Shown in pieces: positions 2,618-17,279 of a DNA stretch of 18,672 nucleotides. The notes under the pieces were generated by a model. That model ran no database searches, was not told the DNA's origin, and saw only the letters and a list, made by a program, of their open reading frames with translations. Where the stretch lies: positions 1-18,672 of the forward strand of contig MUKB01000004.1 of NCBI GenBank assembly GCA_002049785.1, given 5' to 3'. Both the position numbers and the translations under genes were made by a program. The stretch is from Caldifarciminota bacterium 4484_100. GTDB lineage: Bacteria; Hydrothermota; Tepidihabitantia; SM23-42. How positions within the stretch are numbered: position 1 is the stretch's first letter; the number at the start of each line of letters is the position of its first letter.

Positions 2618-5071
2618 TCAATGTAGAATAATTAATTTTTTTATTTCATTATAGTTATTCGCCTCAAAAATGCAAAAGTATATTCCCGAACCCACAGCAG
2701 TGCCCGTTTCATTTTTCCTGTTCCAGTAAATATTATAATATCCCGGCTTCTCGAATTCGTCAATTAGAGTCTTCACAAGTCTTCCGTTGATATCATAAAT
2801 TTTCAACCTGACTCTTCCCGAAACTGGAACTTGATATTCAATATTAGTAATAGACCGAGAAGGATTTGGGTAGATCGAAGAAAGGGCATAAACCTTAGGA
2901 ATCGCAGAAATATTATTACCAGCACAAGGGCCATTATTTCTCGGATTGTTAACGATATTAATGATAGTTCGCGATGGAGTATACTCATTATATCTCGTAC
3001 AGGTCACTTTTACTTCGCCGGTGGTTCTATAATAGACCAAAAATGTTATCTTACCGGAATCATCGGTGTAACCGGTGTAGTAGTTCTCGTATGGCTTATA
3101 TAAACATACATAGGCATTCTCTACAGGCATTCCATCAGAGGTCACAGTTATTGTAACTTCTACAGGCGTCTGCACCGGGATAGTATTCAAATGACTAGCA
3201 GAAAGTGAAGCGGGTTCTTGTGTCCAAACGGGCATCGCTGGCGTGGCCATAAGATTCAGAGTATATTCCATAAAATGTTCCCACTGTGGAGGATCAATAG
3301 TGGCAAGCATCTTAGATTGAGCATATATCTTTCCGATGGAGTAATCCAAATACGCAGACTTCACCTTGTAAAGAAGTTTAAAAAACCATTTTGCATACTC
3401 TTCTGAGTAGATAAACACACCATCTCGGCTATTGCCAATGTATGCTACTCCACAATGGGGCGCAAAAAGCCAGGTTTCACCAAAACATCTAATACCACCA
3501 TCAAAGTTGCAAGTTTCACAACCCATAGAATAGAATAAACCGTACCTTTCTCCATTTGAGATATCTTCTAAATCCCAATTAGTAATTTCATCTGATCCAT
3601 CCCAATATGGCTTAACAGAAATTGAATAATTATTCCCGTGCCCCTCATGATAGCAGACATAGAAACCTTCATTCAAGTCATTGATCACAGGGTTATGACC
3701 AATCAGTTGATTCTTGGGTGGATAATCAGGTGGCCCAGAGTAATAACCATCGTATGATCTGAATTTTGGCACATCGCCTGGTACAAAGTTTATTACATAA
3801 TCTTCAATCCATTCACCACCAGAGCAATTATCACCGATGGCTGCACCGAGTAGAAGTAAATCACCCGATGTTGTATAATCAGGGGGTGTTCGTTCATATA
3901 TTAGAACTTTGTTAACAAATAAACTAACTTCGTTTGAATTCAATACTGAAACTCTTCCGACCCATACCTCGGGTTCAAGATCAACTTTGTCATATTGATA
4001 TTCACCATAATACTCATTATTATTGGCATTCCATGTTCCGTCAAGACAGGCATAATAGGCATCAGCGGCAACATGCCAATCTGGAAAGTAGTCTGCATTT
4101 GGATATGCTAGTCTTTCAGGTATGACATCAGTGTCTCCACCAAGGAGGATGTATTCTGTGCCACGATTGATATAGGCGTTTCTGATGAATTTGCGTATCT
4201 TTGTTTGTAGATCATCGGTACCGAATTCCTCATTAATTGATTCTATTGTTTTGAAATCTGTTCTTATTCCCCGTTGTCTATACCATTCTGCCAATGGTCC
4301 AAAGGCATCAACAAGAGAATCAGCAGTAATGATTATAAGTGTGCCTGGGCCTTTGGGAAGTGGATTGCCTGAAGAACTTTGAGGAAACATCGAATCTGGA
4401 ACAATTGGTGGTTGATTTGCAAATAGATCCACCTGATTAGGATTTACCACCATCTTCTTTGCCAGATTTATATAACGATTATGCTGCTGTTGAGTTCTCC
4501 TTACTACTGGTAGAGATTGATCAGATGCTGGTTCAAACTGTAGATTGACTCTGAAGTGGGTAAAGAGGATGAGTTTTCTTTCTCCGGGAATATATTGTAT
4601 AGGAAATACAAAGACCTTGGCTAATTTTATCCCGGCAAAATATCCAACTCGAGAAAGTTCAACAATCTTCCCGGGGTATGGTAGCAGAGAATTGTATATA
4701 CTGGTATCAGGGGGAACAAAATTTGGACGTGGGGAGCCATCTGATCGCCATATAGGTTGAGATGGAAAGATTTGATAATTACCATCAATTTGCACAGAGT
4801 CCTTTTCTTCAATTGTGAACCCGGTTACCGTTACATTAGTGGGAATTACAAAGGTTACACAGAGCATTGGAAGCATAGGCTCGCTTACCTTTGTGATATA
4901 AGTGCAGTTCGGCAGAGCAACCACATCATAATCGTGCCGGATTGAGAAGGACAAATCTGCTGGTGTAAGATTAATTGAATAGGTGACCTGACAAAAAACA
5001 GGTGCTACCAAGACGAATAATAAGATAAGAAACAGCACTATCTTTTGATTTGAAAAAACTCTTTCTATCAT
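2618..5071 (-). CDS. Gingipain-like C25 cysteine endopeptidase with T9SS sorting domain
   Basis: An 817-residue secreted protease. Residues 1-28 are a signal peptide ending FCQ. Residues ~29-200 resemble the C25 propeptide. Residues ~243-605 are the peptidase C25 domain: GTLIIITADSL opens it, the ILLGGDTDVIPER strand follows, and the catalytic pair is most likely His478 (YHEGHG) and Cys518 (FYSMGCE), 40 residues apart as in the gingipain layout. An Ig-like region (~630-705, with the TDDSGKITF turn) comes next. The T9SS type A sorting domain occupies ~734-817 (YPNPS, IYDINGRLVKTL, GSGIYFC). By family knowledge it should be exported by T9SS, activated by propeptide removal and displayed or released at the surface. 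Arg/Lys specificity cannot be read from the sequence. Start: ATG 5071 with AGGAGG 6 nt upstream. It is first in a likely two-gene operon with the propeller gene. Confidence 0.9.
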   Translation of the reverse strand: MIERVFSNQKIVLFLILLFVLVAPVFCQVTYSINLTPADLSFSIRHDYDVVALPNCTYITKVSEPMLPMLCVTFVIPTNVTVTGFTIEEKDSVQIDGNYQIFPSQPIWRSDGSPRPNFVPPDTSIYNSLLPYPGKIVELSRVGYFAGIKLAKVFVFPIQYIPGERKLILFTHFRVNLQFEPASDQSLPVVRRTQQQHNRYINLAKKMVVNPNQVDLFANQPPIVPDSMFPQSSSGNPLPKGPGTLIIITADSLVDAFGPLAEWYRQRGIRTDFKTIESINEEFGTDDLQTKIRKFIRNAYINRGTEYILLGGDTDVIPERLAYPNADYFPDWHVAADAYYACLDGTWNANNNEYYGEYQYDKVDLEPEVWVGRVSVLNSNEVSLFVNKVLIYERTPPDYTTSGDLLLLGAAIGDNCSGGEWIEDYVINFVPGDVPKFRSYDGYYSGPPDYPPKNQLIGHNPVINDLNEGFYVCYHEGHGNNYSISVKPYWDGSDEITNWDLEDISNGERYGLFYSMGCETCNFDGGIRCFGETWLFAPHCGVAYIGNSRDGVFIYSEEYAKWFFKLLYKVKSAYLDYSIGKIYAQSKMLATIDPPQWEHFMEYTLNLMATPAMPVWTQEPASLSASHLNTIPVQTPVEVTITVTSDGMPVENAYVCLYKPYENYYTGYTDDSGKITFLVYYRTTGEVKVTCTRYNEYTPSRTIINIVNNPRNNGPCAGNNISAIPKVYALSSIYPNPSRSITNIEYQVPVSGRVRLKIYDINGRLVKTLIDEFEKPGYYNIYWNRKNETGTAVGSGIYFCIFEANNYNEIKKLIILH

Positions 5072-6879: not shown

Positions 6880-8478
6880 TTAATGTTTTATAATGGTCGG
6901 GGTAAGGAAAATCAGAAGTTCCCGATCCTCAACCGAAGTTGTTGTCTCCCTGAACAGCGCACCCAGGATAGGAATGCTTTTTAAAATCGGAATCCCATGA
7001 ACCGATTTGGTCTTCTTCTTCCGGATGAATCCACCAATCACCACAGTATGGCCATCTTTGACCAGCACCTTGGTATCGGCCTCAGATGTCGTAACAATCG
7101 GTCTTCCTGCCAGTGCTGATGCTTTATCCAACTCACTCACCTCAGCATGAATTTCCATTGTCACCTCTTCCAGGGAATTGATATGGGGCGTAACCTGAAG
7201 TTTTGTTCCAACTGTATAGAACTGAATAACAGTATTTCCAGATATATCTCGGGTTGGAAATCCAAAGCGCTGACCACCGAGAATCCGTGCTTCTTCATTG
7301 TCGACTGCAGTTACCCTTGGTGAAGATATCGTGTGGGCTTTACCGGTCTCTTCCAGAAGATTAATCGTCGCATTGACCTGCGCCAATGAAGGAACGGTTC
7401 CCACATTAAATATGCCGTAGCCCGCGATCGTCGGATTCACATTGCTTGAAATATCTGCGCGGACAATTCTGCTTTCTAAACCTTTCAAGGTCCAGTTAAT
7501 ACCCAGGCCCTTTGATGCCGAGGCATCTACATCAACAACCTTGGCCATAATCTCAACCTGAGGGGTGGGTGTATCGAGCAATTTTACCAGCTGTTTAATC
7601 TTCTCATGAATTGGCTGAACCTCGGTAACAACAATAGAATTTGTCCTCACATCCACATTGGCCTTACCCTTGGGTGAAAGCATCGCCTTAATCTTATCAA
7701 GCATCTTCTGAGGATTGGCAAATTCCAGTTTATAAATCTTGGAAGTAGTTGGTAGGTCATAATCCTGCTTATCCAAATTCTCTGCAGTATCGACCCTGAT
7801 TACACCTGGATCCTCACGGAAGGCATAGCCCGAGGCCTTGAGGATAATCTCCAATGCCCGGCGCCAGGGAACATTATGAAGTCTAACTGTAACCGTTCCC
7901 TTAACATCCTTACCCGCAACAATATTCACACCCGCATACTCGGAAAGTGCCCTCAAAACGGTAAGGATATCCGCATTCTCCAGATCTATGGAGATTGGAC
8001 GTCCGGTTACAGTTGCTACCGGTTTTGGAGTGGGTGCCACTGGAGGAGGGGTTGGTGTGGGAGCTGCAGGAATAGCGGTGCTGGCTGAGGCCAGCCATTC
8101 AGGGAATGGTGTGCTAATACCCGTAAGTAGGGTAACAACAAAGTTATTCTCCTCGGTTGAGGTAAGAAAAGAATAATCACGGTCCAGTTTCCCCACCACG
8201 CGGATGAGGTCGGGTTGTTCCGTAAAACCGGTAACCGCAAGTTCCTTGATTCCTCCGGCATTTACTGGAAATGTCTTTCCCACCAGAGGACTTGAGACCC
8301 CAGAACAGTCAACCACGATCCGTGCTGGATCTTTTAGGGTAAATGTATTGGCAACAAATGGTGCATCGGATTTAATAATCAGTTTGGTATTACCCTCCTC
8401 AGAAACCACTGCCAGATCGTTTATAACTGCACCACCTGCCACAGAAATTAATAATGCGAAGATAAATATATTCCTCAT
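6880..8478 (-). CDS. pilQ: Type IV pilus outer-membrane secretin PilQ
   Basis: Forms the multimeric outer-membrane pore through which the pilus passes. 532 residues, short for PilQ (often about 700). Order: signal peptide (1-16); one AMIN domain (~18-117), which in the family binds peptidoglycan; a Pro/Thr/Ala linker (~122-158); STN/N0 domain (~160-230) with the NVPWRRALEIIL signature; one N1/NolW-like domain (~246-305); and the secretin domain (~306-532) with VHGIPILKSIPILGALFR and the final ELLIFLTPTIIK. With a single AMIN and a single NolW-like domain it is a minimal PilQ. AGGAGG stands 6 nt before ATG 8478. The pilP stop is 3 nt upstream. Confidence 0.93.
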   Translation of the reverse strand: MRNIFIFALLISVAGGAVINDLAVVSEEGNTKLIIKSDAPFVANTFTLKDPARIVVDCSGVSSPLVGKTFPVNAGGIKELAVTGFTEQPDLIRVVGKLDRDYSFLTSTEENNFVVTLLTGISTPFPEWLASASTAIPAAPTPTPPPVAPTPKPVATVTGRPISIDLENADILTVLRALSEYAGVNIVAGKDVKGTVTVRLHNVPWRRALEIILKASGYAFREDPGVIRVDTAENLDKQDYDLPTTSKIYKLEFANPQKMLDKIKAMLSPKGKANVDVRTNSIVVTEVQPIHEKIKQLVKLLDTPTPQVEIMAKVVDVDASASKGLGINWTLKGLESRIVRADISSNVNPTIAGYGIFNVGTVPSLAQVNATINLLEETGKAHTISSPRVTAVDNEEARILGGQRFGFPTRDISGNTVIQFYTVGTKLQVTPHINSLEEVTMEIHAEVSELDKASALAGRPIVTTSEADTKVLVKDGHTVVIGGFIRKKKTKSVHGIPILKSIPILGALFRETTTSVEDRELLIFLTPTIIKH

Positions 8479-8481
8479 ATT

Positions 8482-8895
8482 TTACCTCCTTTCTTTCTCT
8501 TTAAGTGGCAATTCATATTTTGTCACAACCCCTGCGTGAACTATCTGGAAGATGATAGCACGGCGATTTATTTCGGCCACTTTACCACCAGCAACCCTAT
8601 CGCCCCTTCTCAGAATATAACCGTTATTCAGACCATCTTTAACTAAGGCATAGTATCCTTTATCTCCCCAGAGAATTCCAATGAGGGTAAGATTTTCTAC
8701 ACTCAGATGACTTGTTTTGCCACCCTGTGACAATTCTGTACCTACCAGGGGAACAAAGGGATCTCGCCTTCCCTTTGCTGTATAATGCCATTTCTCCACA
8801 GGAAAGAGGGTATCTGTTGCAGATGGTGCACTGGGGGTCTGATTGAATAACAGTAATCCTAATAAGAAATTACCTACGACGAGGTGGAGCACCAC
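8482..8895 (-). CDS. pilP: Type IV pilus assembly protein PilP
   Basis: 137 residues. PilP bridges the inner-membrane PilN/PilO pair and the PilQ secretin. A hydrophobic N-terminus (~3-17) is followed by a short linker and the PilP domain: GRRDPFVPL (42-50), LTLIGILWGDKG (69-80), then YILRRGDRVAGGKV. Classical PilP is a lipoprotein, but this one has no cysteine at all, so it is anchored by an uncleaved helix or is free in the periplasm. Start is GTG 8895, with GGAGG 6 nt upstream, giving a 26-bp overlap with pilO. No alternative start fits better. Confidence 0.85.
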   Translation of the reverse strand: MVLHLVVGNFLLGLLLFNQTPSAPSATDTLFPVEKWHYTAKGRRDPFVPLVGTELSQGGKTSHLSVENLTLIGILWGDKGYYALVKDGLNNGYILRRGDRVAGGKVAEINRRAIIFQIVHAGVVTKYELPLKEKERR

Positions 8896-9448
8896 GACGC
8901 ACCTCCTTTCTTTTCGCTACGGTATAAGTAATTGCCCTCAATTCTGCCTCAATCGATTTTTCCTTTGAACCCTTTTTTATCTTCACGGACGGAACATTGA
9001 CGATTCGCGCCAGATTTCCAATATTAGAGAGAAATTTTCCAAGCTGGTGATAACCGCTTGCAACCTTTATCTGTACCGGTATCTCTGCATATTTAGCCTT
9101 AGGATTGGGTCCGCTCGGTTTGAAGAGTATAAAACTCACTCCTGCTTTAGTCCCTGAATTGGAGATCTGTTGAATCAATGATGGTATCTCTTTTTCCTTG
9201 GGCAACATCTTCTTTGCCTTCTCCCATTCTACTTCAAGCCGGGCAATTTTTTCCTGAAGTTCTGGAAGTCTTGCACGAGCCGCCTCAGCCTTCTGAACCT
9301 CAATCTGTAGTGAATCTCTGCGTGCAGTTAACTGTTTAATCTTCTCTCGATTCGACTTATAGGGAAATCGGAAAAAGAGTATCAGTAATACCACTAAGAT
9401 AACAATAAAAATAATTAACTGCTGACCTTTTGATTCTTTGAGATTCAT
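8870..9448 (-). CDS. pilO: Type IV pilus inner-membrane protein PilO
   Basis: 192 residues with standard PilO design: a short cytoplasmic N-terminus, one transmembrane helix (~10-28), a periplasmic coiled coil (~33-85), then a ferredoxin-like domain starting near MLPKEKEIPSLIQQIS. It pairs with PilN in the alignment complex. The tail is unusually basic (RRGAPPRRR); its coding DNA overlaps pilP. Start ATG 9448 overlaps the pilN stop by 4 bp (ATGA), with AGGAGG a few bases upstream. Confidence 0.9.
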   Translation of the reverse strand: MNLKESKGQQLIIFIVILVVLLILFFRFPYKSNREKIKQLTARRDSLQIEVQKAEAARARLPELQEKIARLEVEWEKAKKMLPKEKEIPSLIQQISNSGTKAGVSFILFKPSGPNPKAKYAEIPVQIKVASGYHQLGKFLSNIGNLARIVNVPSVKIKKGSKEKSIEAELRAITYTVAKRKEVRRGAPPRRR

Positions 9449-10053
9449 TTTTTCCTCCTAGCCAGGGTATCCTCCAATCCAACATTTGCGGTGAGGGTAA
9501 ACTGCATCATCTCCTGTTTCTTCACAGCCTTCTTCTCCAAGACGGAAAGATCAACATTGCTGATATAGGGTGAATCTTCCAACCGGTTCATAAAATCGGC
9601 AACCAGAAGGTTGGAGGCAGCAATGCCTTTTAATCCCAATCTCGACTGATTCACATCCACCGAGGTTAACCAGGTGAATTCAGGAATGCGTGAAGAGATC
9701 TCATCGAGGATATGAGCGATGAAGAAGCGGTTCTTATTGAGTTCTTTAATCGGATCAATTAAGGAAGCCAGTTCCCTTTCTCTTCTCTCTAAACTATCAA
9801 CCGTTGCCTTATAGACCTTAAGCTCTTCCAGTCGGCTGGACAACTGGTCAATATTTTTATTGAGCCTACCCATCTGGGATGATTGTGAGAGCAAGAGAAT
9901 TCCTACAATCAGTACAAAAATGACAATTCCCGCAATATAAACAATCGTCGCCTGGATCGAGGGGAGTTTCACACCAGGTCGCGGTACCTTCGCCGGTCTC
10001 GCCTTAGGAGCCCGACCCTTTTTGGCAGTTGGTGCTAAATTTATTTTTATCAT
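9445..10053 (-). CDS. pilN: Type IV pilus inner-membrane protein PilN
   Basis: 202 residues. The extreme N-terminus IKINLAP matches the conserved INLxP motif that docks into cytoplasmic PilM. A basic, Pro-rich cytoplasmic stretch (~10-30) follows, then one transmembrane helix (~35-56), a coiled coil (~60-105) and a periplasmic ferredoxin-like domain. It heterodimerises with PilO. Start ATG 10053 comes one base after the pilM stop; its ribosome binding site AAGGGGGG lies inside the pilM 3' end, implying coupled translation. The Pro/Arg-rich linker is longer than in Pseudomonas or Neisseria PilN. Confidence 0.9.
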   Translation of the reverse strand: MIKINLAPTAKKGRAPKARPAKVPRPGVKLPSIQATIVYIAGIVIFVLIVGILLLSQSSQMGRLNKNIDQLSSRLEELKVYKATVDSLERRERELASLIDPIKELNKNRFFIAHILDEISSRIPEFTWLTSVDVNQSRLGLKGIAASNLLVADFMNRLEDSPYISNVDLSVLEKKAVKKQEMMQFTLTANVGLEDTLARRKK

Positions 10054-10054
10054 T

Positions 10055-11095
10055 TTATTCCCCCCTTAATGCTAAGCCAATCGCTTGCGCCAAAATTGGT
10101 CCTGTAACATCAACCCCTTCTGGCGTAAATATGGTTGGGTCATAGATTATGTTTTTCAGAGGGTTGAGAATTTCAATCGGGATATTAAAGCGCCTCTTTA
10201 GAAATTCCAAGAGATTCGGAATTAATGCGCCGCCGCCAGAAAGATACATCCGATTGATCTTCTCTTCACCGGTAACACTTGAAAGAAATTGTAGACTCCT
10301 TTCGATATGAGTACTGAGGTCATTCACAAACGACTCGAAAACACCTTGGACTGAATCCTGAGAAGCACCGACCGGGATTGTTCCCTTCACCGCATTTGCA
10401 GCATCCTCATAGTTGAAACCAACCTCCTTCTGAAGTTTACTGATAAATGCATTCACTCCATAGTAGACATCACGGGCAGAAAGACAGGAACCACCCTTGA
10501 TAACATTTATAACCATCATCCCAGCGCCGATATGAATCAATCCTACAATTTCATCTGGTGCAGTCTGATAATTAAATTCATAGACATTTTGTAATGCAAA
10601 CGCGGTGGTATCAATAATTGTTGGTTTCAGATTTAGCTCTTTCAAGAGTGAGGTGAGATTATTAATAAGCTCATTCTTCGCGGCGACAAGAATTACCTCC
10701 TGCTGATTTTCTCCAAAATTAGGATTGACGATATCAAAGTCGAGGGTCACTTCGTTGATATCGAAGGGCACATACTGCTCGGCCTCCCACTTTATCTGTT
10801 CACGAGTGTCAGATTCACTCATCCGGTCCATTGTGATGCGTTTAATTATCACATCACGACCCGCCAAGCCGATCACCACATCCTTGCTCGTAAAGCCTTT
10901 CGTTTCGATCAGCGTCCTGATCGAATCCAGGACAGCCTCCCGATCGATTATTTCTCCTTCAACAATAGCATCAGGCAAAACCTTTGCAATCCCATAGTTG
11001 AGCAATTTCTTGCTCTTGCCTGAGCTTAGTTCAACCATTTTGGTTTGGCTTGACCCAATATCAAGCCCAATTACCTTTTTCTTTTTCCCGAACAT
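10055..11095 (-). CDS. pilM: Type IV pilus assembly actin-like ATPase PilM
   Basis: 346 residues, an FtsA/actin-like cytoplasmic ATPase that binds the PilN N-terminus. Phosphate-1 loop LDIGSSQTK (11-19), phosphate-2 region HIGAGMMVINV (~188-198) and adenosine motif LSGGGALIPNL (~286-296) are all present, as is the PilM hallmark IKWEAEQYVPFD (~101-112). Start: the frame opens with a GTG at 11101, but that codon overlaps the ribosome binding site. ATG 11095 stands 5 nt from AAGGAG and is preferred. It is the first gene of pilMNOPQ-rsmD-coaD, with its own promoter at 11138-11165. Confidence 0.93.
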   Translation of the reverse strand: MFGKKKKVIGLDIGSSQTKMVELSSGKSKKLLNYGIAKVLPDAIVEGEIIDREAVLDSIRTLIETKGFTSKDVVIGLAGRDVIIKRITMDRMSESDTREQIKWEAEQYVPFDINEVTLDFDIVNPNFGENQQEVILVAAKNELINNLTSLLKELNLKPTIIDTTAFALQNVYEFNYQTAPDEIVGLIHIGAGMMVINVIKGGSCLSARDVYYGVNAFISKLQKEVGFNYEDAANAVKGTIPVGASQDSVQGVFESFVNDLSTHIERSLQFLSSVTGEEKINRMYLSGGGALIPNLLEFLKRRFNIPIEILNPLKNIIYDPTIFTPEGVDVTGPILAQAIGLALRGE

Positions 11096-11137
11096 AATCA
11101 CTCCTTTTTATTTTCAAATTTCAAATTTTAATTATTA

Positions 11138-11263: not shown

Positions 11264-11291
11264 TTGACAAATTATATTATTTAATTATACT
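11264..11291 (+). promoter_or_regulatory. Candidate promoter of the TonB receptor / ARPP-1 / kinase-helicase unit
   Basis: TTGACA (11264-11269) and TATACT (11286-11291) are 16 bp apart. A TATAAT at 11291-11296 is 21 bp from the -35 and less likely. Either choice places the transcript start at or inside the GGAGG ribosome binding site (11298-11302), giving a nearly leaderless message. The -35 is convincing; the exact -10 is not. Confidence 0.4.
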
Positions 11292-11307: not shown

Positions 11308-13863
11308 ATGCCAAACTTCTTAATTGCACTTTTTCTTATTCAGGGACTTACCGGCAAGATTCAAGGTGTTGTCCTGGATAAAGAAACCAAAGAACCTATC
11401 TCCTATGCAGATGTCATTATTCTCAATACTGAAATGGGTGCAGCATCTGATAATCAGGGCAATTTTTATATCCTGAATGTCCCTCCGGGCCGGTATGATA
11501 TCGAGGTCTCATTTATCGGCTATCAAACGGCAGTAATTCGTGATGTAAAGGTCGAAATCGACCGTACCGCTCGCCTGAAAGTAGAATTAAAGAAAACAAT
11601 TATTGAACTCCCCCCTCTGGTCGTCACCGGAGAGATGCCTGTTGTAAAAAAGGATATGGTGGGAACAACATATATTGTAAGAAAAAGCGAAATCTTAACA
11701 ATCCCAATCGATTATTCAATGGATATTATTGCATTCCAGCCATCGGTAGCTCGAGCCGATACAGCAATCCATGTCCGTGGTGGCCGGGCAACCGAGGTAT
11801 TATATATGATTGACAATGTGCCTATCCTCGATCCCCAGACCGGTGATCCGGCAATAAATGTCTCTAAAGGGGCGGTGAATCAGGTTATCTTTCTACCCGG
11901 AGGTTTTGATGTTGAGTATGGACGGGCAATGTCCGGAATAATTAACCTTATTACCGAACATCCTTCTGCACAGATAAATGGCAGGCTCTTCGGCAAAACC
12001 GAAAGAATAATGCCTTTCTATTATGACTTTGGTTATGAAAACTATCAATCTTCTTTCCATATTCCCCTGACCAGAAAATTAAAAACCTATTTCAGCCTTG
12101 ATCTGATGCATACTGATGATTGGGACCCAAGACTCTATATCCTTCCCCATAAAAGGCGTGATGATTACACCGTTTATGGAAAATTGCTATATACACCTAC
12201 AGGTAAGTTGAATTTTGGTTTTAGTGGAGCAAAGTCGAGAAGCCAATTTGATCGCTATAACAGCAAGTGGAAATATAATATTGACAACTACCGTTCCGAT
12301 ATGAGAAAGGGTGATTTAGAGGCGTTAAACATAAACTTCTTACCGAATTCACGGAATCTATTCAACTTAACCGTTAGTAGACTGTATACAAGAAGGTTAT
12401 TTGGTGTAAGGGAAGCTGGTGGTCAATTTGAAGACTTCACATTTCGCGATTATGCAAATCTTGAATGGCCTCATGGTGGTATTGATAATCCATTTGGTAT
12501 AAATATACCATACATACCCTTTGTCGGTGATTACGACCAATATCAAGATAAATCATCTCAGGTTTTAAGAGCCAATTTCAATACGGATCTACAGATCCAT
12601 CAATACCATGAATTAAGGACAGGGTTTGAGTATAACCTAATGGAAATAAAAAACTTTACCTACTTTATCAGTGACACAATGCATCAGCTGATCGATGAAT
12701 ATAACCACCATCCAAAGGAATATGCTATATTTGTCCAGGATAATATTGACTACAAAGGACTGTTTGCAAAAATCGGCGTCCGTTATGATTACTTTTCAAG
12801 CGATATTGAAGGCATAAAACCTAAGATAAGCATTTCCCCTCGACTCGGTTTCTCCTTTATGGTAACTGAAAAATTTCTATTTCGAGCCAATGTAGGTCAA
12901 TATACCCAGCCTCCATTATATGACCAGATGTATAGTTACTATAACCTTCTCCCTTTTCCAGCATATATAACACAGATTCCACTTATTGGTAACCCAGCCC
13001 TTGGCCCGGAAAAGACAATAGCGATAGAAATCGGCCTTCAGGGTGAAGTCAAAAAAGACCTTCTAATTACGGTAAACACCTTCTATAAAGATATCTCTGA
13101 CCTGCTGGGAACAAAGCTGGTGCAAACCCTGCCCCGCGATTATGTCACTTACTTTAATGTAGAATATGCCAATGTAAAAGGGCTGGAGGCAATTCTGGAA
13201 TTCCAGAATTCTCTATTCAGCGGTAAGGTTTCATACACCCTCTCCTGGGCTCGGGGCACAAGTTCGTATGCAGAGGAAGTCTATTATCGCTATTACTATG
13301 ACAATCCCGACACAAGCTTTGTGCCTCCTACTCAGGAATACTATCTCGATTTTGACCAGCGTCATCGCATCTTTATTCAGGGAAGTTCCCGGCTTCCCCT
13401 TGGCGGGAAACTCGACATATTCGCCTTCTTTGGAAACGGTTTCCCTTATACACCACCCGGTCCTGAGGGTAAATATGAAGAGCGCAATATTGTCCGGCTT
13501 CCTTTCCAGCGCCAGATCGACTGTGCAATTTCCCGTGCCTTTAAAATTCATCAAACAACAATCAACTTCTATCTTGAGGTAATTAACTTACTTGATGAAC
13601 GTTATGAAATCGCCCCCCATTACCCTATCATCGCACTTGAGGACATAAATATGAAAGACTTTGAACATCCACCTCCATATATCGATATTATGGAAAATTC
13701 TGCATATTACAATCCGGCTGGAGACAGAAATCATGATGGACTGATTACACCTTATGAGGAATATCTGGCAATGCATGAATTTGCCCGGGATAGCGATGAT
13801 TGGGTTAATGCATATACCGCACCACGAAGGGCACGGATTGGTATAAATATTGTTCTTAAATAG
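11308..13863 (+). CDS. TonB-dependent outer-membrane receptor with carboxypeptidase-regulatory-like N-terminus
   Basis: 851 residues. Signal peptide (~1-16). A CarboxypepD_reg-like domain (~17-97) has GKIQGVVLDKETKEPISYADV, SDNQGNFYILNVPPG and FIGYQT. The plug domain (~100-220) includes IHVRGGRATEVLYMIDNVPI and VEYGRAMSGIINLIT. The rest is a 22-stranded-type barrel with typical NPALGPEKTIAIEIG and LLITVNTFYKDI blocks. It imports a ligand, not identifiable from sequence, across the outer membrane using TonB energy; there is no SusD partner. Near the C-terminus, residues 806-817 (DRNHDGLITPYE) form a complete EF-hand-type loop in the last extracellular segment, so calcium may shape gating or substrate binding. 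GGAGG stands 5 nt before ATG 11308. The next gene begins 8 nt after the stop. Confidence 0.9.
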   Translation: MPNFLIALFLIQGLTGKIQGVVLDKETKEPISYADVIILNTEMGAASDNQGNFYILNVPPGRYDIEVSFIGYQTAVIRDVKVEIDRTARLKVELKKTIIELPPLVVTGEMPVVKKDMVGTTYIVRKSEILTIPIDYSMDIIAFQPSVARADTAIHVRGGRATEVLYMIDNVPILDPQTGDPAINVSKGAVNQVIFLPGGFDVEYGRAMSGIINLITEHPSAQINGRLFGKTERIMPFYYDFGYENYQSSFHIPLTRKLKTYFSLDLMHTDDWDPRLYILPHKRRDDYTVYGKLLYTPTGKLNFGFSGAKSRSQFDRYNSKWKYNIDNYRSDMRKGDLEALNINFLPNSRNLFNLTVSRLYTRRLFGVREAGGQFEDFTFRDYANLEWPHGGIDNPFGINIPYIPFVGDYDQYQDKSSQVLRANFNTDLQIHQYHELRTGFEYNLMEIKNFTYFISDTMHQLIDEYNHHPKEYAIFVQDNIDYKGLFAKIGVRYDYFSSDIEGIKPKISISPRLGFSFMVTEKFLFRANVGQYTQPPLYDQMYSYYNLLPFPAYITQIPLIGNPALGPEKTIAIEIGLQGEVKKDLLITVNTFYKDISDLLGTKLVQTLPRDYVTYFNVEYANVKGLEAILEFQNSLFSGKVSYTLSWARGTSSYAEEVYYRYYYDNPDTSFVPPTQEYYLDFDQRHRIFIQGSSRLPLGGKLDIFAFFGNGFPYTPPGPEGKYEERNIVRLPFQRQIDCAISRAFKIHQTTINFYLEVINLLDERYEIAPHYPIIALEDINMKDFEHPPPYIDIMENSAYYNPAGDRNHDGLITPYEEYLAMHEFARDSDDWVNAYTAPRRARIGINIVLK

Positions 13864-13871
13864 AGGATAGT

Positions 13872-14747
13872 ATGGAAAAGGAGTGGAAGTTTCCACAGAT
13901 CCTTGAATTTGAAGAGCCGATATTCTTGAGGAATCTGACACTCTATCCGATCGTCGGAAAGGATGGAGAGTCATTTGACGCCCTCAGTATTGAAGAAGCG
14001 CTGGATAAAAAACTTGCTGACATTCAAGAACTTGATATTCCGGATATAAATAGACTTCAACTTGAAAATCGCTCCCCGAGTCCGCTTCTGATGCTGGATG
14101 GCGAGGAGATTATCGGTTCCTTACAGAATCGAATCATCGCCACCTCTACCATCATTCCCGCCAGAACTAAAAAATCTATCAGGGTAATCTGTGCAGAAGA
14201 AGGAAGGTGGAATGAATTGGGTGGATTTAAAACCGGCTTCTGTTCCTATCCTAAGATTCGCGCCATCCTTTCTCAGGGTATACACAAAAGTAATATCCAG
14301 AAAAGAATCTGGAATGAAATCAGCAGAAAATTGACCGTAAGCAAAATCTCTTCAGCCACATCATCAATGCATGATATCTATAACTCCCTTGAGGAAGAAA
14401 TTGCACGTTACATCGAAGGGTTTAAGAGTTTGAATCATAAGACACTCGGCTTTATCGGCTGTTCGAAGAATCAAATATTAGGTTGCGATCTTTTTATAAG
14501 TCCATCACTCTACCAGAAGTTTGAGCCCAAACTGATTCGCGCCTATGCCCTCGATGCAATTGAGCAACAGAATATAAGAACCAAAGCTTCAGATATCAGT
14601 AGATATTTTGATGAACTCTGCTCTTTTCTTGAACAGTTTAAACCACGTTCCAATATGAAACATATAAGGATAAGAGAAAAGTACTTTTTTGGACAGGCCG
14701 TCGCCATTAAAAATAGATTGATACACCTGTCTATATTCCCAAATTAA
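13872..14747 (+). CDS. ARPP-1 domain protein
   Basis: 291 residues, no signal peptide, so cytoplasmic. The N-terminal two-thirds match my memory of the ARPP-1 domain (ARG and Rhodanese-Phosphatase-superfamily-associated Protein): LTLYPIVG (22-29), the ALSIEEALDKKLADIQEL block, the ENRSPSPLLMLDGEEIIGSLQNR block (65-87), IIPARTKKSIRVICAEEGRW (94-113) and a final LIHLSIF. No biochemical activity is established that I know of; the family was named from genomic association with ADP-ribosyl-processing and phosphatase genes in predicted conflict or stress systems. The conserved acidic DGEE (76-79) and CAEEGRW (107-113) motifs are present. It sits between a TonB receptor (8 nt gap) and the kinase-helicase (3 nt gap), so it is probably co-translated and functionally linked with the latter. 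ATG 13872 has GAGG a few bases upstream. Confidence 0.75.
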   Translation: MEKEWKFPQILEFEEPIFLRNLTLYPIVGKDGESFDALSIEEALDKKLADIQELDIPDINRLQLENRSPSPLLMLDGEEIIGSLQNRIIATSTIIPARTKKSIRVICAEEGRWNELGGFKTGFCSYPKIRAILSQGIHKSNIQKRIWNEISRKLTVSKISSATSSMHDIYNSLEEEIARYIEGFKSLNHKTLGFIGCSKNQILGCDLFISPSLYQKFEPKLIRAYALDAIEQQNIRTKASDISRYFDELCSFLEQFKPRSNMKHIRIREKYFFGQAVAIKNRLIHLSIFPN

Positions 14748-14750
14748 TCG

Positions 14751-17279
14751 GTGCTTTCCAAAAGACTGGGGAAATATGAAATAATCGAATGGCTGGGTGG
14801 TGGAAGATTCGGAGATGTCTTTCTTGCCCAGGATACTATTCTCGAAAAGAAATTCGCCCTCAAAATATCACGGATGAAAAAAGAAGTAATGCTGATGCTC
14901 AAAGATGAGGCAAGGCTGCTTGCCTCACTGAATCATCCCAATATTGTTAGGTTCTACAATATCGATTTCATTGATGAAAAATTCGTTATGGTGATGGAAT
15001 ACATCAGAGGAAAAACATTGAGGGATGTAATTAGTGACCAGGGGATTGATATTGAACTGGCAATCAATATCATCAGCCAGGTACTTGATGGCCTCAACTA
15101 TGCCCATAAAAAAGGGGTACTCCACAGGGACCTGAAACCAGAAAATATTCTCATCGACGAACGGATGGCAAGAGATAGTGTAAAGATAACCGATTTTGGC
15201 CTTGCCCTATTTATCAAATCGAAGACAATCTCAACTTCCGTGGCTGGTACCCCAGTCTATATGGCACCTGAATCCTGGTCCGGTAACTACAGTGAAAAGT
15301 CAGACATCTGGAGTGTGGGAATAATTCTTTATGAACTCCTTACTGGAGTACCACCATTTCTTAACAGCAGCCTCGATGGATTGAAAAAAAAGATTGAGAA
15401 GAATAATTACTTGACCCCATCAATTTTAAGAGCAGGTATACCTGATTATATTGAGGAAGTTATTAAACAATGCCTTGAAGTCGATCCACATTCAAGACCG
15501 GATGCCTGCGATGCCTTGGAACAATTGACAAGGAAGAAGAAATCAGTAGCAGTAAAGAAAGCGATTCAACTTCCTGAAAGAAGAACGGTCGAACTTGAAC
15601 TTACACCAGAACAGAAAGAGATCGTCCAGTCACCCGATGGTTCAATACTTGTCCTGGGCCAGGCAGGATGTGGTAAAACCACAACCCTTACACATACAGT
15701 TGTTCACCTGATAAAACATCGAATACCTGCCGATAGGATTCTGGTCTGTACATTTACAAACAAGGCGGCAAATGATATTCTTAACCGAATTCGAGATTTG
15801 ATTACCATCTCCCCCTATGACTTATGGGTAGGAACTTTCCACACATTGGGTATGCGAATCTTGCGTCGGGATGCAGAAAGGCTCAATTTCGACCAGGATT
15901 TCACCATCGTTGAACCGAAAGAGATATTCACAAAGATGAATCTTAAAACAGGAAAATATCGCCTGAGGGCAATAATGAAGACCATCGAAAATCTTAAGGC
16001 AGAAGGGGTCAGCCCGGAACAGTTTGAACCGAGCAACAGGTGGGAGGAATATTGCGCAAAGATTTACCGCAATTATCAGGAACTTTTAAGAGAAAATAAT
16101 CTCCTCGATTATGACGATCTGATTCTCTATACGGTAAAACTTCTAAAGGAACACGAAGATATCAGAAAATACTATCAAAATCTATTTCAGTATATCTTTG
16201 TAGATGAATTACAGGACACCAATTATGCCCAGTATCGTCTCATATCATTAATCTATAAAAAGAATATATTCTTTACCGGCGATGAAGATCAAGCCATCTA
16301 TGGCTGGCGCGGAGGACGGAGGGAATTGATATATCAACTTCCAAAGGATTACCCCAGAATTAAAACTTTCCATCTCAATAAAAGTTTTCGGTTGCCCCAG
16401 GATATCATCGAAATTGCCAATAACCTGATGCACCGCCCCAGCACCGCAATTCCCAATCTCGATTCCGCTGATATTGCGGTCTACACAGCAACTTCTGGTA
16501 AAGATGAAGCAAACTTTGTTGTCCGTGAAATAAAAAATTTAAAAAAAGAAAACTTCCGCTTTCAGGACATCGCTGTTTTATATCGAATGAATTATCTATC
16601 AAGGCAATATGAGGATGCATTAACCCGAGCACACATACCCTATACCATCATCGGAGGCACATCGTTTTATGAACGACTCGATATCAAACCACTGCTCGAC
16701 TACCTCAATCTTGTCAATTCTGTAGGCACAAAGGTGCAATCACTCGAGGCCTTTTCAGGACGTGCAAAGGCAATCCTTCAAATAAAAAGCAGAACTTCAA
16801 ATAAGCTCAATAAGGTTCTTCAATACCATTTTCAAAATAGCCAGCACCTGAAACCGATAAATATCATTGACGAAATTGCTCAGGTCCTCAAAATGGGCGG
16901 TGAGGTAATTGAAGAGTTGAAATCATTCGCCCGAAATTATGGCAGAAATGAAATTCCACGATTCCTGAATGAAGTGCGATTGGTTCAGGAACTTGATCTG
17001 GTAGATTGGGGGCAGGACAAGGTAAAACTTTTGACCGTCCACAGTGCCAAGGGTCTTGAATTCCCCGTGGTTTTTCTTGTCGACCTTGTCGAAGACATCT
17101 TTCCCCTTACCAAAAAACTCACCAACCCAAAAGAGCTGGAGGAAGAGAGAAGACTCTGTTATGTTGGCCTGACCAGGGCAAGGAAAAAATTATATCTTCT
17201 CTATCCAAAACAGCGTGGAGGCCGATATCAAAGGCCCTCAAGATTTCTGATTGATATGTTCAGAAAGAGTAAGTTATAA
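14751..17279 (+). CDS. Hanks-type Ser/Thr protein kinase fused to UvrD/Rep-type SF1 DNA helicase
   Basis: 842 residues in one uninterrupted frame. Kinase (~8-260): Gly loop LGGGRFGDV (15-23), Lys38, Glu53, HRDLKPEN (125-132), DFG (148-150), APE (172-174) and DIWSVG (185-190) are all intact, so it should be active. A basic linker (~261-280) follows. Helicase (~283-842): Q-motif LTPEQKEIV, Walker A GQAGCGKT (303-310), Ia TFTNKAA, GTFHT (361-365), Walker B VDELQDTN (484-491), motif III GDEDQAIYGWRGG (510-522), IV LNKSFRLPQDI (542-552), V VHSAKGLEFPVV (763-774), VI YVGLTRARKKLYL (804-816). The 2B region between the FYER block (639) and motif V is about 75 residues shorter than in UvrD. No transmembrane segment. 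Start is GTG 14751 without a Shine-Dalgarno, 3 nt after the ARPP-1 stop, so translation is probably coupled. I infer kinase control of a DNA translocase, or phosphorylation of repair proteins. Confidence 0.92.
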   Translation: MLSKRLGKYEIIEWLGGGRFGDVFLAQDTILEKKFALKISRMKKEVMLMLKDEARLLASLNHPNIVRFYNIDFIDEKFVMVMEYIRGKTLRDVISDQGIDIELAINIISQVLDGLNYAHKKGVLHRDLKPENILIDERMARDSVKITDFGLALFIKSKTISTSVAGTPVYMAPESWSGNYSEKSDIWSVGIILYELLTGVPPFLNSSLDGLKKKIEKNNYLTPSILRAGIPDYIEEVIKQCLEVDPHSRPDACDALEQLTRKKKSVAVKKAIQLPERRTVELELTPEQKEIVQSPDGSILVLGQAGCGKTTTLTHTVVHLIKHRIPADRILVCTFTNKAANDILNRIRDLITISPYDLWVGTFHTLGMRILRRDAERLNFDQDFTIVEPKEIFTKMNLKTGKYRLRAIMKTIENLKAEGVSPEQFEPSNRWEEYCAKIYRNYQELLRENNLLDYDDLILYTVKLLKEHEDIRKYYQNLFQYIFVDELQDTNYAQYRLISLIYKKNIFFTGDEDQAIYGWRGGRRELIYQLPKDYPRIKTFHLNKSFRLPQDIIEIANNLMHRPSTAIPNLDSADIAVYTATSGKDEANFVVREIKNLKKENFRFQDIAVLYRMNYLSRQYEDALTRAHIPYTIIGGTSFYERLDIKPLLDYLNLVNSVGTKVQSLEAFSGRAKAILQIKSRTSNKLNKVLQYHFQNSQHLKPINIIDEIAQVLKMGGEVIEELKSFARNYGRNEIPRFLNEVRLVQELDLVDWGQDKVKLLTVHSAKGLEFPVVFLVDLVEDIFPLTKKLTNPKELEEERRLCYVGLTRARKKLYLLYPKQRGGRYQRPSRFLIDMFRKSKL

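Follow-up and report, generated by a model that had tools for sequence, protein, structure and literature searches.

A kinase-UvrD helicase fusion and its ARPP-1 partner gene: a possible two-gene DNA module in one bacterial phylum

It is hard to find the inputs of bacterial Ser/Thr kinases, many of which are membrane proteins. In the locus described here, a kinase shares one polypeptide with a DNA motor. The window, by which we mean the whole 18,672-nt stretch of DNA that was analysed (contig MUKB01000004.1 of Caldifarciminota bacterium 4484_100), carries a gene with a Hanks-type kinase in front and a UvrD/Rep-type helicase behind (Table 1). An earlier note on this DNA had claimed that all of the kinase and SF1A helicase elements are present in one open frame, and this was borne out by the 842-aa translation, which has no internal stop, by Pfam and by an alignment of 93 fusion sequences.

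Table 1. Features of the fusion locus, in window coordinates.
Feature	Position	Strand	Basis or remarks
Sigma-70-like promoter match ahead of the 11308 gene	11264..11291	+	TTGACA-16-TATACT, 11/12; consensus match only
TonB-dependent-receptor-like gene, 8 bp before ARPP-1	11308..13863	+	Pfam; synteny cluster c3
ARPP-1 (PF20208), 291 aa, ends 3 bp before the fusion	13872..14747	+	Pfam, linkage, co-occurrence, conservation
Kinase-UvrD fusion gene	14751..17279	+	Single open frame, 842 aa, GTG start
Hanks-type Ser/Thr kinase domain, residues 9-258	14775..15524	+	K38, E53, HRD 125-127, N132, DFG 148-150, P173-E174, R249
Linker, residues 261-283	15531..15599	+	Basic, predicted disordered, mean pairwise identity 12.6%
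UvrD/Rep helicase N-terminal core, residues 284-535	15600..16355	+	Q motif, Walker A K309, motif II D485-E486, Q514
UvrD C-terminal part, about residues 538-839	16362..17267	+	2B-like region 640-756 (fast-evolving), motifs IV to VI; boundaries approximate

Pfam recognizes Pkinase at residues 9-258 (206.3 bits, cut-off 31.7), UvrD-helicase at residues 284-535 (238.7 bits, cut-off 23) and UvrD_C behind it (165.7 bits, cut-off 25.6); the helicase half as a whole, residues 284-839, is of the UvrD/PcrA type. The Lys, Glu, HRD and DFG of Hanks-type Ser/Thr kinases are all found in the kinase half. E53, H125, D127, N132, D148, F149, G150 and E174 are each kept in all 93 sequences, R126 in 92, and K38 in 92 with one gap; the gap most probably belongs to P0122, whose gene model is short at the N-terminus, and in the DNA of its genome (G121) the match begins at residue 3. 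The helicase half has the features of the SF1A UvrD/PcrA/Rep superfamily, namely the Walker A Lys, the motif II Asp and the motifs that we take to be Q and I to VI. Here G306, G308, K309, D485, Q514, R547, G768, T808 and R809 are each found in 93 of 93, and E486 in 87 with Asp in the other six. The earlier numbering of K38, E53 and K309 was right. Judged by these motifs, the kinase is complete and of the RD type, the UvrD/PcrA-type motor is likewise complete, and both lie in one polypeptide.

The fusion differs from the known members of both families. Compared with PcrA, UvrD and Rep, it adds an N-terminal kinase and has a divergent 2B-like region, and its scores lie far below the NCBIfam equivalog cut-offs for all three (PcrA 455 of 911 bits, UvrD 377 of 1144, Rep 370 of 951). 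Beyond its match to PcrA residue 644-645 of 724 the chain continues for only 2-3 residues, so there is no PcrA-like C-terminal extension. Compared with Hanks kinases such as PknB/Stk1, a helicase takes the place of PASTA: Pfam found no PASTA domain in the fusion, which scored 220 against the NCBIfam PknB_PASTA cut-off of 450. PcrA/UvrD is tabulated as a phosphoprotein in several bacteria in the part of PMC4754617 covered here.

The fusion is widespread. Profiles were run on 216 listed proteins, and both halves were found in 181 (the window's own included) and the helicase half alone in 35. This makes at least 181 distinct protein clusters with both halves among the matches listed, 120 (again with the window's own) and 61 more, over two protein searches. 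In the second search, the score drops from 446 bits for the last fusion to 343 for the first stand-alone helicase. Where the listed clusters carry source names, these include candidate division WOR-3, TA06, Stahlbacteria and Hydrothermota, plus two Thermosulfidibacter-type entries. Calling a fusion where a match ran across the linker at E <= 1e-100, we found it in 62 of the 147 genomes of the window's phylum, with one match each, and in 41 of the 93 that are at least 90% complete with at most 5% contamination. The possibility raised earlier, that related genomes would show a stop or frameshift in the linker, was not seen in these matches; one in-frame TGA lies inside the match of a single genome (G029), and several of the 62 are cut by contig ends. 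The note had ranked the gene as the strongest candidate for an undescribed system in this DNA. It is a real single-chain kinase-helicase and probably belongs to a distinct module, but it is not a lone oddity, as it is present in 18 of the 37 families of the phylum.

Trees of the two halves fit a single origin. The kinase-half tree sets 32 fusion kinases together, apart from 18 sampled stand-alone kinases (support 95/97). In the helicase-half tree, a quick one with long-branch warnings, the 32 fusion helicases likewise group together, apart from 35 sampled stand-alone helicases (SH-aLRT 99). The stand-alone kinases and helicases in these trees were taken as loci among the matches listed; every third of the 35 stand-alone helicases from the second protein search was used (12), and a fragment (L099) and a partial fusion (L070) were dropped. 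In 16-17 genomes of families f1 and f2, the distances of both fusion halves, ARPP-1 and a stand-alone PcrA-like helicase correlate with r of 0.78-0.91, and none of 2000 permutations was as high; in this set, the kinase rows of G068 and G069 extend too far and the ARPP-1 row of G078 is incomplete. The groups in both trees together with the correlated distances are consistent with vertical descent from one fusion event. Separately, we observed kinase frames of about 1250-1770 aa in several related genomes, and 12 kinase matches in G073.

Conservation bears on whether the kinase still matters. Mean pairwise identity over the same 4278 pairs of the 93 sequences is 0.485 for the kinase half and 0.372 for the helicase half. 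Within the latter it ranges from 0.229 in the 2B-like region, the lowest, to 0.553 in the C-terminal core (757-840), which is conserved above the kinase half. Against a same-genus relative, dN is 0.086 for the kinase and 0.176 for the helicase half, and dN/dS does not separate the halves (0.053 and 0.048), these last figures being rough because synonymous sites are near or at saturation. By these comparisons, conservation over the whole kinase half exceeds that over the whole helicase half, and both halves are under selection. One could suppose that the protein works as an ordinary UvrD/PcrA, with the kinase inherited as an accessory or scaffold domain. We examined 25 fusion genomes for other helicases, and in four (G057, G058, G073, G090) the UvrD-type matches are the fusion and a RecB/AddA-like frame (1018-1054 aa) only, which means that a genome may show no PcrA-like enzyme other than the fusion; however, G073 is 79% and G057 89% complete, and the absence of another PcrA there is not proven. 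Nearly invariant catalytic residues in a kinase half that is the better conserved one overall are more than a scaffold would need, and we regard this explanation as highly improbable.

The gene that lies directly ahead of the fusion was missed in the earlier account. Its product scores 218.9 bits against PF20208 (cut-off 27) and has the conserved Cys and Gln of ARPP-1. In 36 of the 62 fusion genomes, an ARPP-1 gene is found no more than 1.5 kb from the fusion on the same strand, upstream in 34 and downstream in two; in the other 26 the two are apart. A partner-type (type a) ARPP-1 is still present in 23 of these 26 unlinked genomes and occurs in only four of the 85 fusion-free genomes of the phylum; this comparison is the independent co-occurrence evidence, with counts that include related genomes and are not phylogenetically independent. 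Three of the four fusion-free cases have a possible explanation: in G092 the contig breaks off next to the gene, just where the fusion would be expected, and the families of G021 and G047 include relatives that carry the fusion. There is no such explanation for the fourth, G065. Three of the 62 fusion genomes (G017, G048, G050) had no ARPP-1 match. Within the same class, the fusion and type a ARPP-1 are both absent from genus g16 and families f6, f7 and f10. The ARPP-1 family is absent from 14 of 14 well-known control genomes. A Fisher value of 3e-32 for type a ARPP-1 against the fusion is partly circular, because linked genes outside the tree were counted as type a by adjacency. The linkage and co-occurrence, both read from genome sequences, show ARPP-1 to be a genetic partner of the fusion.

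We split ARPP-1 into two types from a quick tree, where type a is divided among three groups of 40, 7 and 3 rows and type b between two of 29 and 6, with the roots unsure; the 23 of 26 and four of 85 genomes above are those with an ARPP-1 that falls in neither type b group; L251 (from G034) and G035 were set aside, and row L246 duplicates L053. Type b is a second paralogue, usually longer, that is spread in the phylum including fusion-free genomes (L077, L078, L213-L231, L233-L236, L238-L242, L247-L250 and L252). Wherever a row of either type has a residue at the position, C107, Q85, R87, E109, R112 and R130 are kept; for C107 and Q85 the counts are 48 of 48 in type a and 35 of 35 in type b. 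A Ser/Thr segment is conserved in type a, with S161 in 48 of 48, T163 in 47 of 48, S165 in 48 of 48 and H167 in 46 of 49; in type b, S161 is found in 26 and T163 in 24 of 35. The predicted model of ARPP-1 has low confidence at residues 159-164. Neither sequence nor fold comparison gave a convincing solved relative, and any chemistry proposed for it is therefore conjecture.

The authors of PMC9503650 propose a sugar-directed, SRAP-like role for ARPP. In the part of that paper covered here, ARPP is also placed in predicted ADP-ribose conflict systems that can be linked to helicase genes. ARG-centred systems are reported as well, some of them with such a link, and two-gene ARPP neighbourhoods involve HIRAN, WYL or a deacetylase/glycosidase. 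The window's ARPP-1 resembles these systems in its conserved gene neighbourhood and its conserved Cys and Gln; a kinase-UvrD chain as an ARPP partner was not found in that part of the paper.

The surroundings show what the conserved unit is. In the window, the TonB-dependent-receptor-like gene is perhaps co-transcribed with ARPP-1 and the fusion, and the promoter match ahead of it is a candidate operon promoter. Across 12 loci of families f1 and f2 (the window included), the pair is flanked upstream by a TonB-receptor-like gene in 10 and downstream by an opposite-strand DedA-type gene in 10. In nine, a small lipoprotein-like gene comes before ARPP-1, missing in the window and its same-genus relative; it encodes about 143 aa, and the one example run against Pfam had no match. 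Clusters c2 and c3 in relatives L041-L050 hold this small gene and the TonB-receptor-like gene. Outside these two families the neighbours differ (Mur ligase, rhomboid, tRNA synthetase, glycosyltransferase and others), which leaves ARPP-1 and the fusion as the conserved unit. In one lineage (G122, L067, 1271-5543) the fusion is followed by ARPP-1 and then by a PLD-like gene that has a weak OB-fold match and is a possible third component there.

How the two halves are joined bears on whether one controls the other. The structure prediction of the full chain gave a pLDDT of 87.0 overall and a pTM of 0.59, with pLDDT below 50 at linker residues 263-279. The linker varies in length and sequence and has the lowest conservation of any part (mean identity 0.126). 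Its basic character, as earlier claimed, held up: the net charge is +6 in the window protein, and the family is mildly basic, with +3 or more in 43 of 93 linkers against 16% of random 23-mers from the same proteins. A linker that is the least conserved part and predicted disordered suits a tether better than a fixed allosteric joint, and with its mild charge we read it as a tether. The kinase might nevertheless switch unwinding on or off by phosphorylating the helicase half to which it is joined, or the one in a second copy, with ARPP-1 as an accessory. One chain would guarantee the stoichiometry for this, and a stand-alone helicase frame of at least 600 aa in 19 of the 25 fusion genomes checked makes a separately regulated copy plausible. 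However, neither the variable, disordered linker nor the position of the 2B-like region as the least conserved part of the helicase favors such control, and it leaves the co-inheritance of ARPP-1 unexplained. We consider regulation in cis, as the earlier note had suggested, to be rather unlikely.

The reading that we prefer, and to which we give a little under an even chance, is that the fusion and ARPP-1 form a chromosomal, vertically inherited two-gene DNA-metabolism module, in which the helicase would carry an active kinase to DNA and ARPP-1 would be its substrate or effector. The UvrD half would load on single-stranded DNA, a fork or a repair intermediate and presumably move 3'-5' as its family does. 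The tethered kinase would be brought to that DNA, and its activity would rise through local concentration and trans-autophosphorylation, for which the Ser/Thr-rich activation loop (residues 157-167) is the putative site. It might then phosphorylate proteins met at the DNA, such as ARPP-1 (at the conserved S161, T163 and S165), the helicase itself or repair proteins. Finally, ARPP-1 might act through Cys107 and Gln85, perhaps on a sugar as others have proposed for ARPP. The kinase targets and the ARPP-1 chemistry are the least certain of these steps. A kinase joined to a DNA motor, with a usual partner gene, suggests a built-in way of sending a signal from DNA. A narrower version, which we think unlikely, is a DNA-stress checkpoint of the two genes, where the motor-borne kinase would signal engagement at damaged or stalled DNA and ARPP-1 would be a dedicated Cys-dependent executor, reacting with a sugar or abasic site and controlled through its phosphorylated SxTxSxH segment. 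LexA is found in 40 of 62 fusion genomes and 36 of the 85 others, and SRAP in 13 of 62 and 10 of 85; nothing in these counts points to the pair standing in for SOS or SRAP-type repair.

A precedent for the proposed module is YabT of B. subtilis, described in the part of PMC3708118 covered here as a Hanks kinase that is activated by DNA, best by single-stranded DNA, and phosphorylates RecA. The fusion kinase would also be expected to meet DNA, and both have a Lys/Arg-rich stretch at the end of the catalytic domain. YabT differs in having a putative transmembrane helix and no helicase. PglW of BREX type 2 (PMC12839542, in part) also combines a kinase with DNA-binding modules in one chain, but has NERD nuclease, pseudokinase, wHTH and iSTAND domains and no UvrD motor.

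PglW belongs to a defence system, and anti-phage or anti-plasmid defence is the remaining explanation: the helicase would sense foreign DNA and the kinase would trigger an effector, with ARPP-1 acting on sugar or ADP-ribose. The ADP-ribose conflict systems and helicase links in PMC9503650 would fit this, as would many single-domain PADLOC matches (10 window proteins), the best being GajB at 303.8 bits on the helicase half and mad6 at 274 bits on the kinase half. Against it, the fusion scores 190 of 460 for MAD6 and 96 of 990 for PglW at the NCBIfam cut-offs. Each genome has one fusion match, synteny is kept within two families, and divergence tracks PcrA as it does other chromosomal genes. None of 72,556 plasmid and none of 50,697 phage records had one place covering 80% of the query. 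Among 20 neighbour proteins of relatives, searched with Pfam only, one was PLD-like, three had no match and the rest were metabolic, cell-envelope, peptidase or other non-defence proteins. These results speak against the invasion signal that had been suggested, and we judge defence quite improbable. The DNA-module reading has more support than either defence or tight cis-gating of the helicase.

As far as we found, the parts of the fusion are of known kinds, and their combination in one chain and its pairing with ARPP-1 are so far undescribed: neither was found in the open-licence full texts searched, in agreement with the earlier expectation for the architecture. The words helicase and UvrD are absent from the main text of a 2025 WOR-3 genome study (PMC12542636). 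Some database entries for the fusion are labelled UvrD-helicase domain-containing protein, DNA 3'-5' helicase, PcrA or protein kinase domain-containing protein, so annotation pipelines have met it. Here, in 18 families of one phylum, evolution has kept a kinase attached to a DNA motor, and its likely input, DNA, can therefore be read from the chain itself, with ARPP-1 as its likely output. The two proteins offer a way to test whether kinases triggered by DNA, like the checkpoint kinases of eukaryotes, exist in bacteria.

Elsewhere in the window, on the minus strand, a BNR-repeat protein (1087-2607) and a C25 (gingipain-type) peptidase (2618-5071) both end in a Por_Secre_tail, a type IX secretion sorting domain that is unusual outside Bacteroidota. 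Also on the minus strand, positions 6880-11101 hold consecutive genes for PilM, PilN, PilO, a PilP match that scores below cut-off and an AMIN-domain secretin; after these come a Cons_hypoth95 methyltransferase and a cytidylyltransferase-like gene.
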